Shown in pieces: positions 22,614 through 30,426 of a stretch of DNA of 30,819 nt (position 1 is the first letter of the stretch; the number at the start of each line of letters is the position of its first letter). The notes below the pieces were generated by a model. It was not told the DNA's origin. It was given only the letters and a program-made list of their open reading frames with translations, and did no database searches. Location: the IMG/VR virus record IMGVR_UViG_3300046411_000025, positions 1 to 30,819 of that record, one strand, 5' to 3'. The translations under genes and the position numbers were made by a program. Origin of the DNA: a virus.

Positions 22614-23002
22614 TGTTACAGGCTTTACTAGGTCCAATATCTTCACTAGCGGGTACTTGGCTTGAGGGCAAGGTTGAAACAAAGAAAGCTGAAGCTGCAT
22701 CGAAAGTCGCAAAGGCAAAGGCTGAAGCGACTATTATGGAGAAAAAGGCGACCGGCGAGATAGACTGGGATCTGACTATGGCTGACGCCAGCAAACATAG
22801 CTGGAAAGATGAGTGGCTTACAATTTTATTTTCTGTTCCATTGGTGCTAGCCTTTTGTGGTGAGTGGGGGCGTGAGATTGTAGCTCAAGGTTTTACTGCT
22901 TTGGATGCTATGCCTGATTACTACAGATATACATTAGGAATTATTGTGTCTGCTTCATTTGGAACTAGAGCAGCTACAAAATTCTTTGGAGGAAAGAAAT
23001 GA
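22613..23002 (+). CDS. holin, GTA_holin_3TM type
   Basis: A 129-residue protein of the 3TM holin type found in gene transfer agents and many alphaproteobacterial phages. It has an N-terminal segment (LLGPISSLAGTWLEGK), a Lys/Ala/Glu-rich linker, the family-like HSWKDEWLTILFSVPLVLAF (residues ~61-80) and YYRYTLGIIVSASFG (~103-117) near the end. Holins accumulate in the inner membrane and open at a set time to release the endolysin. The GGAG upstream gives a usable RBS; the stop overlaps the lysozyme start by 4 nt. The family bias supports an alphaproteobacterial host, weakly. Confidence 0.83.
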   Translation: MLQALLGPISSLAGTWLEGKVETKKAEAASKVAKAKAEATIMEKKATGEIDWDLTMADASKHSWKDEWLTILFSVPLVLAFCGEWGREIVAQGFTALDAMPDYYRYTLGIIVSASFGTRAATKFFGGKK

Positions 23003-23451
23003 ATATAGCAAAGCTGCGTGCTGATCTTGAGCTTGACGAGGGTATTAGCCATGTTGTGTATGTAGATCATCTTGGTTTGAAAACATGTGGCATAGGTCAT
23101 TTGTGCCTAGAAGGAGAACCTGAGTATGATATGGAAGTTGGCACAGCCATATCTGATGATCGTGTACAAATATTATTTGAGCGTGATCTTGATATGGTTC
23201 GCCTTGATTGCTTGAAACTGTATCCTAACTTTGATTCTTTACCTGAGGATGCCAAGCTGATTATTGCGAACATGATGTTTAATCTTGGTTTGCCTCGTCT
23301 TTCTGGTTTTAAGCTAATGAAGGCTGCTGTTGATGCTGGTGACTGGGAAGAGGCTGCGAACCAGATGGAATCCTCCAAGTGGTATCGTCAGGTTATTAAT
23401 CGGGCAGAGCGTTTGTGTAATCGGATGCGGTTATTGGCTGTCCCAACGTAA
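22999..23451 (+). CDS. endolysin, T4-lysozyme-like muramidase (GH24)
   Basis: A 150-residue glycoside hydrolase cleaving the MurNAc-GlcNAc bond of peptidoglycan. The T4 lysozyme triad is visible: E14 in LDEGISHVVY, D23 in VDHLG and T29 in LKTCGIGH. The C-terminal half has the typical IANMMFNLGLPRLSGFKLM and a final RAERLCNRMRLL. There is no signal peptide, so release depends on the holin just upstream. It ends the rightward late unit; a convergent gap follows immediately. Confidence 0.93.
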   Translation: MNIAKLRADLELDEGISHVVYVDHLGLKTCGIGHLCLEGEPEYDMEVGTAISDDRVQILFERDLDMVRLDCLKLYPNFDSLPEDAKLIIANMMFNLGLPRLSGFKLMKAAVDAGDWEEAANQMESSKWYRQVINRAERLCNRMRLLAVPT

Positions 23452-23453
23452 AA

Positions 23454-23481
23454 CGAGTGAGCATCGGGGGACACTCACTCG
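23454..23481 (-). terminator. terminator-like hairpin ending the leftward early unit
   Basis: A perfect 8-bp stem, CGAGTGAG (23454-23461) and CTCACTCG (23474-23481), with a 12-nt loop. Read leftwards the stem is followed by TTTT, read rightwards by CCGT, so it fits a Rho-independent terminator mainly for the leftward transcript, possibly slowing the late transcript as well. Confidence 0.68.
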
Positions 23482-23516
23482 CCGTGGGTTAGCGGAGAAC
23501 CAAAACCGCACCACGA
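23454..23516 (-). ncRNA. putative 3'UTR-derived sRNA with anti-RBS loop
   Basis: After the SSB-like stop, the leftward RNA can form a hairpin (23484-23514: outer GTGG/CCAC, inner GCGG/CCGC) whose loop reads TTTTGGTTCT, then the 23454-23481 terminator-like hairpin. With the two adjoining C residues, TTTTGGTTCTCC is exactly complementary to GGAGAACCAAAA, the start region of the DUF932 gene, and to 7-11 nt of six other early ribosome-binding sites. The arrangement (seed-bearing loop plus terminator, at the 3' end of the transcript it would target) is that of a bacterial 3'UTR sRNA. No known RNA family was recognised. Alternative: the match is a remnant of a lost gene start in the opposite direction. 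Confidence 0.42.
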
Positions 23517-23936
23517 TTAGAATGGTATATCATCATCCATTTCTTGTGTAGATGTTTCTTGTGGCTCTGGCTTTGATTCGTCATCCTTTGGCTTTGACTC
23601 GTCATCCTTTGGCTGCATTTCTGACACCTTGAGAGATAAATACTTACGTCCATCTTTCTCACCGCGCCATCCAGCAATACGCCAATCCTGATGTATGCCA
23701 TCAAGAGGGCCAGAGTAATCTGGCTTGTTGTCGTCATCTGTCTTGTCTTTGTTTTCAAACAGCACACCTACTTTCTGGTACACCTCAAGACGCTTTTCTC
23801 CTGTCTTGGTTTGAGCCGTGATAATAGCAACGTGACCATCCTCACCCATGATGTTTAGCTTGCCCTGCAAGATAAAGTTCTGTTCGGGCCAAGGCTTGCC
23901 AGCTATGCCGGAGTTAGTGTTGTCATATTCAGTCAT
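23517..23936 (-). CDS. single-strand DNA-binding-like protein, 139 aa
   Basis: A 139-residue protein, probably an OB-like ssDNA-binding protein. Central segments (IITAQTKTGEKRLEVYQKVG, WRIAGWRGEKDGRKYLSLKVSEM) are beta-rich with aromatic and basic residues; the C-terminus is acidic and ends MDDDIPF, the same type of tip as bacterial SSB, which docks partner proteins. A 21-nt direct repeat encodes PKDDESK twice in the linker. ATG 23936 was chosen over an upstream start because it follows AGAAGGGA at normal spacing. It is the last gene of the leftward unit, with ERF and exonuclease two and three genes upstream. Confidence 0.75.
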   Translation of the reverse strand: MTEYDNTNSGIAGKPWPEQNFILQGKLNIMGEDGHVAIITAQTKTGEKRLEVYQKVGVLFENKDKTDDDNKPDYSGPLDGIHQDWRIAGWRGEKDGRKYLSLKVSEMQPKDDESKPKDDESKPEPQETSTQEMDDDIPF

Positions 23937-24243
23937 TGATCTGTCCCTTCTGTAACTTGTATTGGCGTCCTCTGCGATTGATGATGTATCCATCAGCCCT
24001 AGCTAACTTGATGTAGGTTATGACTGTTTGAACAGATAGATTTAGATACTCCCCAATCTCTTCTACAGTTCTGTATCTACCCTTGATTGTGGTTAGAAAC
24101 TTTCGTGGATACTTATTCGATGTTTCAATCAACTTCTTTGGTTCTAGTGGTGGTGGGGAAGCCAGCATGACCAGCTTCTCCAGATTGTTGTTAATCCTTT
24201 TGAGTTCATCCTCAATGGTTTGTAGCTGTTTCACGTGGAACAT
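23929..24243 (-). CDS. small coiled-coil / winged-helix protein, 104 aa
   Basis: A 104-residue protein. Residues ~4-35 form an amphipathic helix (KQLQTIEDELKRINNNLEKL), likely a coiled coil; residues ~58-98 look like a helix-turn-helix with wing (RTVEEIGEYLNLSVQTVITY, then DGYIINRRGRQYKL). So a small dimeric DNA-binding protein is likely, of unknown target. It starts on TAATG overlap with the ERF stop (24241-24245) and overlaps the SSB-like start by 8 nt. Regulation of the recombination genes or help with ssDNA handling are both possible. Confidence 0.72.
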   Translation of the reverse strand: MFHVKQLQTIEDELKRINNNLEKLVMLASPPPLEPKKLIETSNKYPRKFLTTIKGRYRTVEEIGEYLNLSVQTVITYIKLARADGYIINRRGRQYKLQKGQIND

Positions 24244-24683
24244 TACCAATCCTTATCGTCTGATGAGTCAGTTGACTTGCCTTTTGTCACTTTGGGTGAA
24301 GGCATACTGGCAGAGTTGCCATCATCATCTTCTGACGGCAAACCAAAGACTGACTGCAAGCCATATCTTTTAGCGTAGGTAATACCACTGCCCATCTTTT
24401 GTGGATCAGTATTATCCTTGGTTAAAACAGGTGTTCTGCCCTCTACATATTCACCTGATTCATGCAACAGCATCGTTCTTACAAAGATAACATTGTCTTG
24501 GAAGTCAACAATCTGCGTGAATGTAAGGCCACACTTGCCAGCTTCTGCTCGTACAGTTTCAATAACCTCTTCAAGCGAGGCATACTTTGACTTGAAGAAT
24601 GGATTGTTTGCAGCTTTCTTTGCTGCTGCTCCTGTGTTGTGGAACTGTATCAAGGCTTTGCATATATTTTTGTACTCAGACAT
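24243..24683 (-). CDS. erf: ERF-family ssDNA-annealing recombinase
   Basis: A 146-residue ERF-type protein, the single-strand annealing recombinase class of phage P22. The conserved opening NPFFKSKYASLEEV (residues 27-40) and the core GSGITYAKRYGLQSVFGL (98-115), followed by the acidic SEDDDGN, are typical. It anneals complementary ssDNA made by the neighbouring exonuclease, supporting genome circularisation, concatemers and gene exchange. The acidic C-terminus (SSDDKDW) may contact SSB. The start carries the extended RBS GGAGAACCA; it overlaps the exonuclease gene by 8 nt. Confidence 0.93.
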   Translation of the reverse strand: MSEYKNICKALIQFHNTGAAAKKAANNPFFKSKYASLEEVIETVRAEAGKCGLTFTQIVDFQDNVIFVRTMLLHESGEYVEGRTPVLTKDNTDPQKMGSGITYAKRYGLQSVFGLPSEDDDGNSASMPSPKVTKGKSTDSSDDKDW

Positions 24684-25488
24684 TCTGGTTCTCCTTTACT
24701 GTGACACGAAGTGATCCGCGCTTATCGCGTTTGATGGTGAGAAGGTCACAGTATACTTCTCGCTCATCATCTCCGACCATAGCTTTAAGATCAGACTTGG
24801 CTGAATCAAATAGCTTGGCGTTCTGTTCTTGCTCAATGTAGTCATGGCATCTGCTGATAAACTCATTGTCAGATGACGCATCCCTGCGTGTCATACCATC
24901 TACTTTGATCTTGTCTATGGATACAGGTGGTATCTCATCATCAGCAAAAGGGCGGGTGTTGTCCCGAACCAACCCCCAAAATTCTTTGATGTGGACTTGC
25001 ATCTTGTGAATGTAATCCCAATCAACTGACACATAGACAGATTCCCATCTACGATTGCCAAAGATTACAGATAGATAACAGCCCTTGGCTTGGTGCAACC
25101 ACATGTAAAACTGTATTTGTGGCATATACATTTGCAAACATTGCTGCATGTTGTTTGCATCGTATGTGTGCTTGCACTCGATAATCTCATCGGTAAAATT
25201 ATTTTGAGATCCGCTGTTGTCCCAGACATATCCATCTACAGTTCCTTTGAGTTGCACACCTTCCCAATTTATTTCTGCACAATACTGTTGCTTTCTAACG
25301 CTGCAACCATGCTGGTCAGCAAACCAATTGATATTGAACTGCTCTGTAAATACTCCAAGCTGCACAGGCAGCACATTGGATAGATCATCAGGCTCTGTTT
25401 TGCCTGTCTTTTCTTCCCATAGTGATGTCCAATCACCATTCATTATGCGGCGCATATCTGAGCCGCCTAGAAATCCTAGTCTGTTCAT
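24676..25488 (-). CDS. YqaJ/lambda-exo-type recombination exonuclease
   Basis: A 270-residue PD-(D/E)xK nuclease that resects double-stranded ends for ERF. Motifs: LGGSD near the N-terminus (7-11), PVQLGVFTEQFNINWF (41-56, with E49), LKGTVDGYV (80-88, D85), IIECKHT (102-108, E104 and K106) and PQIQFYMWL (123-131). These are the usual YqaJ-family elements in order. RBS AAAGGAGAACCAAC precedes ATG 25488. A promoter candidate with an overlapping dyad lies 14-49 nt upstream, so the recombination genes could be expressed separately from the rest of the early unit. Confidence 0.9.
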   Translation of the reverse strand: MNRLGFLGGSDMRRIMNGDWTSLWEEKTGKTEPDDLSNVLPVQLGVFTEQFNINWFADQHGCSVRKQQYCAEINWEGVQLKGTVDGYVWDNSGSQNNFTDEIIECKHTYDANNMQQCLQMYMPQIQFYMWLHQAKGCYLSVIFGNRRWESVYVSVDWDYIHKMQVHIKEFWGLVRDNTRPFADDEIPPVSIDKIKVDGMTRRDASSDNEFISRCHDYIEQEQNAKLFDSAKSDLKAMVGDDEREVYCDLLTIKRDKRGSLRVTVKENQNV

Positions 25489-25508
25489 GTTGGTTCTCCT
25501 TTGTATTG

Positions 25509-26033: not shown

Positions 26034-26577
26034 CTGCTCTCCACTTAAAGGCGCGGCGACACCAGCCTCTGTAAGCGAGGTCAATGCTGACGAATCTGCT
26101 GCCTTTGCTGGCATGGTAACAACGGAACTGATCTGCTTCATAGTCATGGTCCTGATCCTCTTCTAGCTTTTCATTTATCGACTTGCATAACTCCTCACTT
26201 GGACACCAATCTTCTGGCACCAATATCTTTTTGTTTACTGGAGGGTTAATTGATAGGTTAGTGTTGCTGTCTGCAACAGGTAACTTGCTGTCTGCAACAA
26301 CCTCGTTGCTCTGTGCAACACTAGGGAATATTGTATAGATGGTAGACTTGCGGTATGAGCCACGCACTCTTGTCAACAGTCCGTGATCCTCTAACCAATT
26401 GAGTTTCCTAGTAATTGTAGCCACACTCATTTGTGTGCGGTCAGATAGACGTGACAAACTAGGGAAACATTCGTGTGTATGTTCATCGGCATGGTCAGCA
26501 AGTACGACCATAAGCCACTTGGCATAGCAATCAGGGATGTCAGCTTTGATTGCCCTCGCCATCAGTAGAAACGACAT
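25915..26577 (-). CDS. O-like replication initiator with HTH_36 domain
   Basis: A 220-residue protein. Residues ~5-75 form a helix-turn-helix of the HTH_36 type (VLADHADEHTHECFPSLSRL, RTQMSVATITRKLNWLEDHG), the DNA-binding half of lambda O-type initiators. Residues 87-107 are three 7-residue repeats (VAQSNEV, VADSKLP, VADSNTN). Residues ~149-179 (DQFRCYHASKGSRF ... YRGWCRRAFKW) match the conserved C-terminal part of phage replication proteins that recruit the helicase. After residue ~180 the frame runs on over the next gene for 40 residues. RBS AAAGGAGAACCAAC fixes the start. The DNA of the repeats is itself iteron-like, so the gene probably contains the origin. Confidence 0.82.
   Translation of the reverse strand: MSFLLMARAIKADIPDCYAKWLMVVLADHADEHTHECFPSLSRLSDRTQMSVATITRKLNWLEDHGLLTRVRGSYRKSTIYTIFPSVAQSNEVVADSKLPVADSNTNLSINPPVNKKILVPEDWCPSEELCKSINEKLEEDQDHDYEADQFRCYHASKGSRFVSIDLAYRGWCRRAFKWRADGSRSGSFTHNKQSVRGRQKVSHFAGILSGLSSTADKQN
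26264..26319. repeat. iteron-like dyads inside the initiator gene (candidate origin)
   Basis: Three dyads of the form TTGC-N5-GCAA at 26264-26277, 26285-26298 and 26306-26319, exactly 21 bp apart (two helical turns). On the coding strand they read GTTGCAGACAGCAAC, GTTGCAGACAGCAAG and GTTGCACAGAGCAAC. An AT-rich stretch (about 26215-26262) flanks them on one side. In lambdoid phages the origin is a set of iterons inside gene O; the layout here is the same. Confidence 0.62.
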
Positions 26578-26902
26578 GTTGGTTCTCCTTTAGTAATGGC
26601 GCAATCCTTTCAGCAAATACATCGCCATCAAATATTACAAGCGTTTTTGGTGAGCCTGTCTTGCGCTTGTAAAACAAAACATCTCTTACAACTGTAAACG
26701 GATTGGGAAAGTTTGACTTGTCGCGGTACTTTACTTCCACCACCAGTCGCTCTTCACCGATTTCCCAGATGATGTCACCGCTATATTCTCCTCCCAAGCT
26801 GCCGCTGAGGGGTTGCCTTTTCGCTTTAAACCCTTTTTCTTGGAGCCAGTTGACGAACCACCTTTCGTGGTAGTTGCCTTTGTTGCGATTTTTGTTTGCC
26901 AT
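26540..26902 (-). CDS. Holliday-junction-resolvase-like nuclease (PD-(D/E)xK)
   Basis: A 120-residue small nuclease. The fold signature is clear: basic N-terminus, NKGNYHERWFVNWLQEKGF with E13, the loop PLSGSLGGEYSGDI with D43, then LVVEVKY with E56 and K58. This is the E-D-ExK arrangement of Hjc/VRR-type resolvases. Likely role: cutting branched DNA from recombination and replication before packaging. It overlaps the zinc-ribbon gene upstream by 172 nt and the initiator start downstream by 38 nt, so it is embedded in a tightly coupled group. The RBS is weak (GGTGA). Confidence 0.82.
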   Translation of the reverse strand: MANKNRNKGNYHERWFVNWLQEKGFKAKRQPLSGSLGGEYSGDIIWEIGEERLVVEVKYRDKSNFPNPFTVVRDVLFYKRKTGSPKTLVIFDGDVFAERIAPLLKENQHVVSTDGEGNQS

Positions 26903-27986: not shown

Positions 27987-28318
27987 GATTTGGTTCTCCT
28001 TATGCTTGGGAATGGTGGTATTACTGGCAATTGTTCGTTCCATAAGTGACGTGTGATATCAATCTTGCCCTGCATAGATTGCCAATTACCAATTTGAAAT
28101 GATGTTTCAACAGCATCATCCTCATCTGTAGCAAACACATGCTGATACACAGTGTAAGTTTTCATGTGATTGATATCATCGCCTTTGCAATTAGGACATG
28201 TGCCTTCGATCATTGAGTTAATGTATTGCTCCTCATCGAACTGCATTTCGCAAAAGCGACACTCATAATATTCTTCAAAGACTTTCTTAGCCTCTAACTC
28301 AGTATGGAATATGGTCAT
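27983..28318 (-). CDS. zinc-ribbon-containing hypothetical protein, 111 aa
   Basis: A 111-residue protein with a clear zinc ribbon: ECRFCEMQF (C20, C23) and TCPNCKGDD (C41, C44), the two knuckles 17 residues apart. The N-terminal helix and the C-terminal HVFATDEDDAVETSFQIG part give no family. Zinc ribbons of this type bind nucleic acid or proteins such as RNA polymerase, so a transcription or translation modifier is possible, unproven. ATG 28318 has GGGAG 7-8 nt upstream. The gene overlaps both neighbours (28299 and 27986). Confidence 0.68.
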   Translation of the reverse strand: MTIFHTELEAKKVFEEYYECRFCEMQFDEEQYINSMIEGTCPNCKGDDINHMKTYTVYQHVFATDEDDAVETSFQIGNWQSMQGKIDITRHLWNEQLPVIPPFPSIRRTKS

Positions 28319-28505
28319 CAAGTGGCTCCCTTGGATTTGCTTTTTCCCACGCAGCAACTGCACGTTGGATAAACTTATCTCTATTGAACTTAGGATTAGT
28401 TGCAGCTAACTCATCAGCCATCTTGTGTATTTGTGTAGGCCAACTCATTAATGGGGCAACATTATCTGCAAGATATATAAAGTGACGTTGGGTCATTAGT
28501 GACAT
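28299..28505 (-). CDS. hypothetical protein (MTQRHFIYLADNVA type), 68 aa
   Basis: A 68-residue protein containing QRHFIYLADNVAPLMSW and later NPKFNRDKFIQRAVAAWEKAN. A pattern of 'T-x-x-HF-x-x-IAD ... F-x-R-x-x-F-x-x-A' is common to small early proteins of many phages and plasmids; I know of no function. The start, ATG 28505, has a consensus AAGGAGGT at ideal spacing, unlike its neighbours' GGAGAACC sites. It touches the upstream gene's stop and overlaps the downstream gene by 20 nt. Confidence 0.68.
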   Translation of the reverse strand: MSLMTQRHFIYLADNVAPLMSWPTQIHKMADELAATNPKFNRDKFIQRAVAAWEKANPREPLDDHIPY

Positions 28506-28714
28506 TATTTTACCTCCTTGATTGGACGAAAGGATTGATCTTCGTTTGCATCACGATCAAGAACTTCCTGATAAGTTGCAGCAACACGATCAATGTTCCA
28601 CTTGGCTGATTGTATTTGATAAACAAACCGTGAATCTTCTTCAGATGCACGTTCAGTAAGTAAGTCAAGTATGCGCTTGCACTCGTTGACTTGATTGATA
28701 AATGATATTTTCAT
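28505..28714 (-). CDS. hypothetical helical protein, 69 aa
   Basis: A 69-residue, charged, probably all-helical protein (INQVNECKRILDLLTERASE, FVYQIQSAKWNIDRVAATYQ), which could form a small helical bundle or coiled-coil dimer. No family recognised. The longer upstream reading is rejected because ATG 28714 has a variant of the extended RBS (AAGGAGAACTAAT) and the longer frame would run through a strong RNA hairpin (28741-28787) and into the DUF932 gene. Confidence 0.66.
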   Translation of the reverse strand: MKISFINQVNECKRILDLLTERASEEDSRFVYQIQSAKWNIDRVAATYQEVLDRDANEDQSFRPIKEVK

Positions 28715-28740
28715 ATTAGTTCTCCTTGTTTGATTGGCGA

Positions 28741-28793: not shown

Positions 28794-29666
28794 TTAAACT
28801 CTGTGCCAATTAGATTGCTTGAACACTTTAGCAAGTTGGTTCTCACGCAGCCGCTGAGTATTGGCTGGTGACTTGGACTCTTGGGTATGTGATGCCCAAT
28901 ATGTGCAAGCGTTGTATAACGCCCACTTGTTAGAGCCGAGAGACTTTTTGTCTGCATACCAGCATGACATTAAGTTATCCAACATGCGTTCATTCCATTT
29001 GAATGTGCTTGTCTTGTTGGGTACACGACACATGCTGTGCTTGAAGAATGTCTCAGCCATCTCATCGTCAACATGCGTAGTTATCCATGATTTGTAGATA
29101 TCTTTGGTAGTCATGAACGCATCAAGGCCAGCTTGTATTTTCTTTGAACTGCCCTCGACATTGACGTTGGTTGTATGCTTGGCCCATGTATTAGCTACAG
29201 TGTCAGCATGTGTACAACCATTGAGGCACCACAAACGCAGACCAAAAGCTGATTGTTGAAACGCCCAGCTACTGTCATATGAGTTGAAGAATTGAACACG
29301 GAACCTGACATAATCACCGACTGCTGGTTCGATGACCAGATCATTGAAGTCAACAGTGCCGCGCAGCTTTGCGCCATTGTCGAACACTTCAATGTTTGTA
29401 TCGTAGTCATTAGATACTGCTGAGTTTTTGACAGCATCCATCACAGAGTTGACAACATCATCATGCTTGATGGCTTTGTACTTGGAGCCATGAACGCCAA
29501 GCACTTCATTGGTATCAGTACGCATGATAGCCCTAGCCATAGACTGAGGCACATCATACAGGTTGCAGTCACCATCCTTACTTGCAGTCAGGTTGACAGT
29601 TTCAACAGGAAACGACCAGTTATCTAAAGCTAGTGTGTTGTTTCCGATTACAGTTACTCCATCCAT
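28794..29666 (-). CDS. DUF932 (TIGR03299-like) phage/plasmid protein, 290 aa
   Basis: A 290-residue protein of the DUF932 family, common in phages and plasmids and of unknown biochemical role, often near recombination genes. Typical features: an N-terminal strand region, VLGVHGSKYKAIKHDDVVN (~56-74), then LRGTVDFNDLVIEPAVGDYV (~99-118), the conserved SAFGLRLWCLNGC (~141-153) and a C-terminal helical part with FKWNERMLDNLMSCWYADKK. The extended RBS GGAGAACCAAAA leads directly into ATG 29666 and is the best match to the putative 3'UTR antisense loop. It is the first long gene behind the early promoter candidate. Confidence 0.83.
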   Translation of the reverse strand: MDGVTVIGNNTLALDNWSFPVETVNLTASKDGDCNLYDVPQSMARAIMRTDTNEVLGVHGSKYKAIKHDDVVNSVMDAVKNSAVSNDYDTNIEVFDNGAKLRGTVDFNDLVIEPAVGDYVRFRVQFFNSYDSSWAFQQSAFGLRLWCLNGCTHADTVANTWAKHTTNVNVEGSSKKIQAGLDAFMTTKDIYKSWITTHVDDEMAETFFKHSMCRVPNKTSTFKWNERMLDNLMSCWYADKKSLGSNKWALYNACTYWASHTQESKSPANTQRLRENQLAKVFKQSNWHRV

Positions 29667-29676
29667 TTTGGTTCTC

Positions 29677-29793
29677 CTAAAAGTTTGAGTTGCGATGGGT
29701 TACGATTAGGCCCAGCCATTTGATGGTGAACCCGCGATCCGTGCGAAAGTAACGAGGCACGAAATAAAAATTCCTGTAAGATTTGATCCGCAT
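29677..29793 (-). CDS. short leader protein ahead of DUF932 gene, 38 aa
   Basis: A 38-residue basic/aromatic ORF: MRIKSYRNFYFVPRYFRTDR, then GFTIKWLGLIVTHRNSNF. It begins ~24 nt after the predicted early start site with GAGG six nt before the ATG, and its TAG lies inside the DUF932 ribosome-binding site (TAGGAGAACC), so its translation could control access to that site. The sequence looks protein-like (aromatic, balanced charge) and resembles tiny 'FVPRYxRTxRGxxIKWLG' proteins I associate with marine phages. A competing frame exists through the same DNA (see rejected items). Confidence 0.5.
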   Translation of the reverse strand: MRIKSYRNFYFVPRYFRTDRGFTIKWLGLIVTHRNSNF

Positions 29794-29962: not shown

Positions 29963-29994
29963 AAAAAAAGCCCCGCAGCCGAAGCTGCGAGGCT
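29963..29994 (-). terminator. strong Rho-independent terminator
   Basis: Read leftwards: an 11-bp stem (29994-29984 with 29979-29969, one G-U) closed by a TTCG tetraloop, then seven T residues (29969-29963). A classic terminator. It isolates the gene at 30006-30407 from the early unit downstream, so these two groups have separate transcription. Confidence 0.93.
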
Positions 29995-30005: not shown

Positions 30006-30407
30006 TTACGCTGACTTTGTGAAGAACTCGATGCTAGATGCAACGCTCTTTGACTTGTCGTGTTCTTCTGGGAAGAGTGCCTGTGACTGAAGCTGCAGAT
30101 ACTGGAGCAGTTGCTCGACTGTATCTTGCTGGTTGTTGTGCCAGTGCCAGTCGTTCTCCAGCTTTACGAGATCGTCTGCATTGAAGTGCGGTGCGCCTTC
30201 TGCTGACGTACCATCCTTGTTCTTGATGATCTCTTGAGCTTGTACGTTAATGTCAGTTTTCTTCAGTTCTTTCTGATTGATGTTGTAGTTACAATCGTCA
30301 ATGAACTTGTTGAGCATGTAGTTGATAGTTGATTTTGTTGTACGGTCAGACATTGCGAAGATAGTGGTGATGTCTGTAGCGAATGATTTGTTAGCTTTGT
30401 TAGCCAT
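30006..30407 (-). CDS. hypothetical early protein, 133 aa, own transcription unit
   Basis: A 133-residue polar protein (MANKANKSFATDITTIFAMS, then KSTINYMLNKFIDDCNYNIN, HFNADDLVKLENDWHWHNNQ, QLLQYLQLQSQALF), mainly helical, with no recognised family. It starts at ATG 30407 with AAGGAGAACCACT, one of the shared extended sites, and ends 12 nt before the strong terminator. It therefore seems to be a monocistronic first early gene, expressed from the structured region to its right; the position is that of host-takeover or anti-host-defence genes, which is inference. Confidence 0.72.
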   Translation of the reverse strand: MANKANKSFATDITTIFAMSDRTTKSTINYMLNKFIDDCNYNINQKELKKTDINVQAQEIIKNKDGTSAEGAPHFNADDLVKLENDWHWHNNQQDTVEQLLQYLQLQSQALFPEEHDKSKSVASSIEFFTKSA

Positions 30408-30426
30408 AGTGGTTCTCCTTGTAAGC

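Follow-up and report, generated by a model that had tools for sequence, protein, structure and literature searches.

At the 3' end of its early transcript, an uncultivated marine phage carries a hairpin that very probably serves as an inbuilt RNA brake on the expression of its early genes. The window, by which we mean the whole stretch of DNA that was analysed, corresponds to a single uncultivated virus record with a length of 30,819 bases, and related marine phages carry a comparable hairpin at the same place. We consider it likely that the hairpin belongs to an autoregulator that derives from the 3'UTR and controls the early operon by base pairing, in which the loop would cover extensions shared by the ribosome-binding sites (RBSs) of the early genes and so exert feedback on the early proteins.

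The window holds two convergent units. The late genes (terminase, portal, capsid, tail and lysozyme) point to the right, the last of them being an endolysin gene at 22999-23451, and the early genes point to the left, starting at about 30.4 kb and reaching down to an SSB-like gene on the minus strand (23517-23993), which has weak PHROG hits to ssDNA-binding protein and whose product ends in DDDIPF. The hairpin site falls within the 65 nt that separate these units. When the early strand is folded, the 3'UTR forms an anti-RBS hairpin (23483-23515, minus strand; 5'-CGTGGTGCGGTTTTGGTTCTCCGCTAACCCACG-3') and then the intrinsic terminator of the early transcript (23450-23481, minus strand), which consists of a hairpin at 23481-23454 and TTTT at 23453-23450; the z-score of the region is -4.2 against shuffles. 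The anti-RBS hairpin is therefore placed between the SSB stop codon and the intrinsic terminator of the operon, as expected of a 3'UTR-derived sRNA, and the terminator's U-run shares bases with the stop codon of the endolysin gene that converges on it. An additional strong terminator-like hairpin, with 11 pairs followed by TTTTTT, is found on the minus strand at 29969-29994, between the first early gene and DUF932, and the early region may therefore consist of two transcription units or make use of antitermination.

The pairing sequence itself, TTTTGGTTCTCC (23494-23505, minus strand), is made up of the 10-nt loop and 2 nt of the inner stem of the hairpin at 23515-23483; the loop displays UUUUGGUUCU, and the CC that follows belongs to the inner stem. 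Its counterpart GGAGAACCAAAA occurs at exactly two places in the window, on the plus strand at 23494-23505 and on the minus strand at 29677-29666, where it ends on the A of the DUF932 ATG. The initial annotation had proposed a 12-nt complement of the DUF932 start in the loop and adjoining stem of a hairpin ahead of a terminator, and this proved exact in both sequence and fold. Dinucleotide shuffles of the 68-nt 3'UTR reached a 12-nt match in 3 of 10,000 cases, which makes the window by itself suggestive and leaves the decision to the relatives; 16 of 10,000 equalled the observed number of RBSs matched over 9 nt or more. As the site in the window was picked after inspection, the independent evidence likewise comes from the relatives, in which the pairing sequence covaries with the RBS code. 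No Rfam family matched at gathering score anywhere in the window. AAGGAGAACC was noticed on the plus strand at 23110-23119, within the endolysin gene, where the minus strand would pair with many early RBSs; we took this candidate second anti-RBS site to be a chance occurrence, and it is missing in the close relative L003.

Seven of the 11 early GGAG RBSs carry the motif, compared with none of the 10 late GGAG RBSs of the window, which lack GGAGAAC. All seven lie on the minus strand, and they precede the ATG of the ERF annealing protein gene (GGAGAACCAGA-ATG, 24683-24694; targeted in 11/11 phages with that ERF), the YqaJ/RecE-like exonuclease gene (GGAGAACCAAC-ATG, 25488-25499; 24/24), the RepO-like replication initiator gene (GGAGAACCAAC-ATG, 26577-26588; 19/24), a phrog_1123-type gene (GGAGAACCAAATC-ATG, 27987-27999), a gene of about 70 aa (GGAGAACTAAT-ATG, 28714-28725, with one G.U wobble to the loop; 14/20), the DUF932 gene (GGAGAACCAAA-ATG, 29666-29677, with 12 of 12 nt paired; 21/21) and the first listed early gene, the ATG of which is at 30407 (GGAGAACCACT-ATG, 30407-30418; 11/15). 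Their longest exact matches to the pairing sequence are 12, 11, 10, 10, 9, 9 and 7 nt, in agreement with the earlier statement that six early starts other than that of DUF932 share 7-11 nt of the site. The 3'UTR loop thus has complements in the translation initiation regions of the operon that encodes it, which is another property of 3'UTR-derived sRNAs. Predicted duplex energies in the window are -16 to -23 kcal/mol for targets and -12 to -14 kcal/mol for non-targets; the non-target values are not zero, since partial pairing with UCUCC is open to every GGAG RBS. Where the canonical extension would give GGAGGU, these sites have AAC, which adds no pairing to the 16S anti-SD; the conservation of AAC therefore needs another partner, of which the loop is one.

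Some early genes lie outside the set. The 68-aa gene has a conserved non-target RBS (GGAGGTAAAATA-ATG, 28505-28517, minus strand) that keeps GGAGGTAAAATA or a similar sequence across phages; the motif is missing in 21 of 23 of them and present in only two. The RBS of the SSB-like gene, which adjoins the hairpin, also reads without the motif in the window. Among the phages examined, regulon membership is consistent by gene: DUF932, YqaJ and ERF are always members, RepO usually is, and the 68-aa gene almost never is. The gene after YqaJ (24243-24683 in the window, and its counterparts in relatives) belongs to one of two ERF-type families with about 23% identity to each other, and both families have the same position and the same RBS code.

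Relatives were gathered from viral contigs by means of their DUF932, SSB, YqaJ and ERF proteins. In each of them, several early genes share GGAGAAC together with a lineage-specific extension, giving GGAGAACC, GGAGAACT, GGAGAACA or GGAGAACG, and the base that follows GGAGAAC (position 8) can be C, T, A or G in these related marine phages, which amounts to four codes. The complement of the extension is found in a hairpin located 3-24 nt past the stop codon of the last early gene and ahead of a second, terminator-like hairpin, which is at the same place in all relatives and is followed by a U-run in most. Covariation between loop and RBS had been set beforehand as the test of the proposal, and it was borne out across the four codes: in 32 of the 36 loci the loop base opposite position 8 agrees with the base most common among the RBSs, and loops pair better with RBSs of their own phage than with foreign ones. 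Of the four other loci, L031, L033 and L138 use the AAAGGAGAAC side for pairing instead, and L127 is a tie. Beyond the constant GGAGAAC core, pairing averages 2.8 nt for own loops and 1.4 nt for foreign loops; none of 100,000 permutations was as good as the observed arrangement, a result that is not a clean probability because the loci are related. On the best tree of YqaJ the loop code changes five times, with only one independent pair on strongly supported branches, and each change of the loop code involves several RBSs together. Pairing is thus kept by compensatory change, as in 3'UTR-derived sRNAs, in the form of natural covariation with few strongly supported independent events.

Hairpin lists drawn up from GTTCTC alone held many coding hits, and we replaced them with a blind scan based on ORF stops, to which GGAGAAC was not supplied; a hairpin was counted if it lay no more than 45 nt after an ORF stop and if its loop paired over at least 9 bp with at least three RBSs. 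Among related loci the scan was positive for 83 of 175 on the early strand and for 0 of 164 on the opposite strand. The former figure is a lower bound, since the scan misses the window and L063 because of an interrupted hairpin stem, and the 175 scanned loci include fragments that end short of the operon end as well as several that overlap on one contig. In 71 mostly unrelated loci recruited by ERF there were two matches, both of them new members of the phage family. The scan also uncovered code families beyond those first looked for: in L141-L149 the loop GGUGGUUCUUCUUA pairs over 12 bp with AAGGAGAACCAC through one G.U, and in L137 and L140 the loop matches AGAAGGAG and GGAGAAGAA.

Several loci depart from the common layout. 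L072-L082 keep the order of SSB, hairpin and terminator with a looser GGAGAA match. In L164 (8214-8270), L166 and L190 (2351-2440), the sequence AGAGAACTAATC just past the terminator is an 11-nt complement of the hairpin loop, and read on the opposite (late) strand it provides these three with another anti-RBS sequence, situated where the endolysin gene ends. L177 (15310-15375) has CTGTTCTCC in two successive hairpins, and the second, whose loop holds the anti-RBS motif, doubles as the terminator. In L028 (1304) and L061 (5341), a terminator hairpin upstream of DUF932 has GGGTTCTCCCTTC in its loop, and the early RBSs there are GGAGGTA. Phages that share the early extension GGAGGCAA (L041-L049, L169, L171 and L174) showed no matching hairpin, even when G.U pairs were allowed, and look like relatives without the system. 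Among cultured phages, Hodr and MEP301 come closest by terminase, and neither showed a repeated RBS code. Genome contigs yielded only distant relatives of YqaJ, at about 30%, and no host link was found in them.

As the + strand also folds at this site, and as the late operon converges here in the window, it could be asked whether the functional RNA belongs to the late, rightward strand, the hairpin of which would show GGAGAACCAAAA and, by mimicking an RBS, titrate either ribosomes or a translational regulator. We regard this as highly improbable and rejected the late-strand decoy on the basis of neighbouring genes, fold and wobble bias. In L067, L024, L036, L050, L127, L135 and L182 the next gene past the terminator runs in the direction of the early operon, with its own RBS and start codon, so that no convergent late transcript is needed there. 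The early strand gives the better fold in 21 of 28 cases and has more G.U pairs than the opposite strand; in the L141 group the opposite strand lacks GGAG (AAGAAGAACC), whereas the early strand still pairs through G.U. About 15 different hairpin stems occur across the phages, all complementary, and in one subgroup three stem pairs are altered on both sides and all still paired. Together, the compensatory stems, the stronger folding of the early strand and the same-strand neighbours point to an RNA derived from the early transcript. Because loop and targets are on the same strand, the loop does not have the arrangement of a cis-encoded antisense RNA, which lies opposite its target.

According to a rival explanation, the pairing is real but might act in cis, the uncut 3'UTR folding back on RBSs of its own polycistronic mRNA and altering decay or ribosome loading without any free sRNA, and pairing between 3'UTR and 5'UTR is a known kind of regulation from icaR of Staphylococcus. 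Since loop and targets share one transcript, the sequence evidence fits this equally well, but a single loop can occupy no more than one RBS on each mRNA, and the match is nevertheless preserved at 5-9 RBSs in each phage; this favours a diffusible RNA, and we consider the cis explanation unlikely. Exclusion, in which the RNA would pair with early RBSs mainly so as to silence the early genes of a newly arriving phage that shares its code, and changes of code would mark exclusion groups, seems to us very unlikely. It has a precedent in the c4 RNA of P1/P7, which acts in immunity, and it would agree with the lineage-specificity of the codes C, T, A and G and with the targeting of replication genes, which are needed first. 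However, no integrase was found, one code is common to many distantly related phages, and an RNA made early would hit the resident phage too. Finally, terminator hairpins are common at such a place and repetitive RBSs would help a chance match along, as the few shuffles that reach 12 nt illustrate, but an ordinary terminator region is contradicted by the relatives, in which the loop tracks the RBS code and the opposite strand is blank in the scan; we find chance barely credible. Several observations count against the autoregulator that we favour: two of the 12 pairing nt in the window are in the inner stem, the loops of L031, L033 and L138 differ from the majority base at position 8, few independent code changes have full support on the YqaJ tree, and non-targets have duplex energies other than zero.

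According to the autoregulatory model, the 3' end of the leftward early transcript would encode an RNA composed of the anti-RBS hairpin and the terminator hairpin, and the loop would pair with the shared Shine-Dalgarno extension GGAGAACNNN just ahead of the start codons of about seven early genes, among them DUF932, RepO, the YqaJ exonuclease, the ERF annealing protein and small ORFs. RBSs covered in this way would be closed to ribosomes, and SSB, the 68-aa gene and the late genes, which are without the motif, would escape. As the RNA would be made only after the whole operon has been transcribed, its level would track the number of early transcripts, resulting in negative feedback on, or shut-off of, replication and recombination proteins. 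We infer that the sign of the effect is repression and that the RNA acts in trans. Processing or release might turn it into an sRNA, RNase E together with Hfq being one possible route, and a separate sRNA of about 60 nt might drive the early-late switch.

Individual elements of this design have precedents. The icaR 3'UTR of Staphylococcus aureus engages in anti-Shine-Dalgarno pairing through a stretch rich in pyrimidines that matches the SD on its own transcript, as here, but it serves a single gene in cis, unlike the whole operon and the shared extension beyond the SD described above. The c4 RNA of P1/P7 is a phage antisense RNA that blocks initiation. P22 sar and lambda OOP are also phage RNAs that pair with phage mRNA, partly at initiation sites, but as treated in a review of phage sRNAs they are cis-encoded antisense to one gene (PMC12197685), in contrast to short pairing with many targets from the same strand at the operon end. 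VpdS of VP882 and PreS of lambda are, according to the same review, phage-encoded base-pairing RNAs that operate during infection, acting via Hfq on host (and other) targets (PMC12197685), whereas the evident targets here are the early RBSs of the phage itself. The closest likeness is to OppZ and CarZ of Vibrio cholerae, autoregulatory 3'UTR-derived sRNAs that are cut from the 3' end of an operon by RNase E and pair with their own operon (PMC7398697; PMC9438474). As with our candidate, the RNA comes from the operon 3' end, is finished by the operon terminator and pairs with initiation regions of its own operon, hitting some genes and letting others escape (PMC7398697). OppZ and CarZ are bacterial and each has been shown for one site; the candidate system involves a phage, 5-9 RBSs and one shared code, and here loop and code change together between phages. 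On the best reading, it would add to the OppZ/CarZ kind a novel phage variant with multiple targets. The sections covered of the phage sRNA review describe no member of this design (PMC12197685), and a literature search, with subscription papers and preprints outside its scope, returned no such system.

If the model is correct, an RNA of about 60 nt, obtained free from the end of a transcript, would take the place of a repressor protein for the early operon, with several sites tuned to one loop, and this would be, to our knowledge and within the literature searched, the first phage example in which several sites of the same operon are addressed. Thanks to the natural changes of code, the base pairing can be tested without guesswork, and sequence alone predicts, through the shared extension, which of the early genes are regulated. 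A repeated SD extension together with a complementary loop at the operon end provides a signature for searching other phages. Overall, it is probable that uncultivated marine phages of a widespread family control their early operon through an RNA code, in which a lineage-wide SD extension on 5-9 replication and recombination genes and a matching 3'UTR loop change together, and in mixed infections this code could also serve to distinguish self from other.
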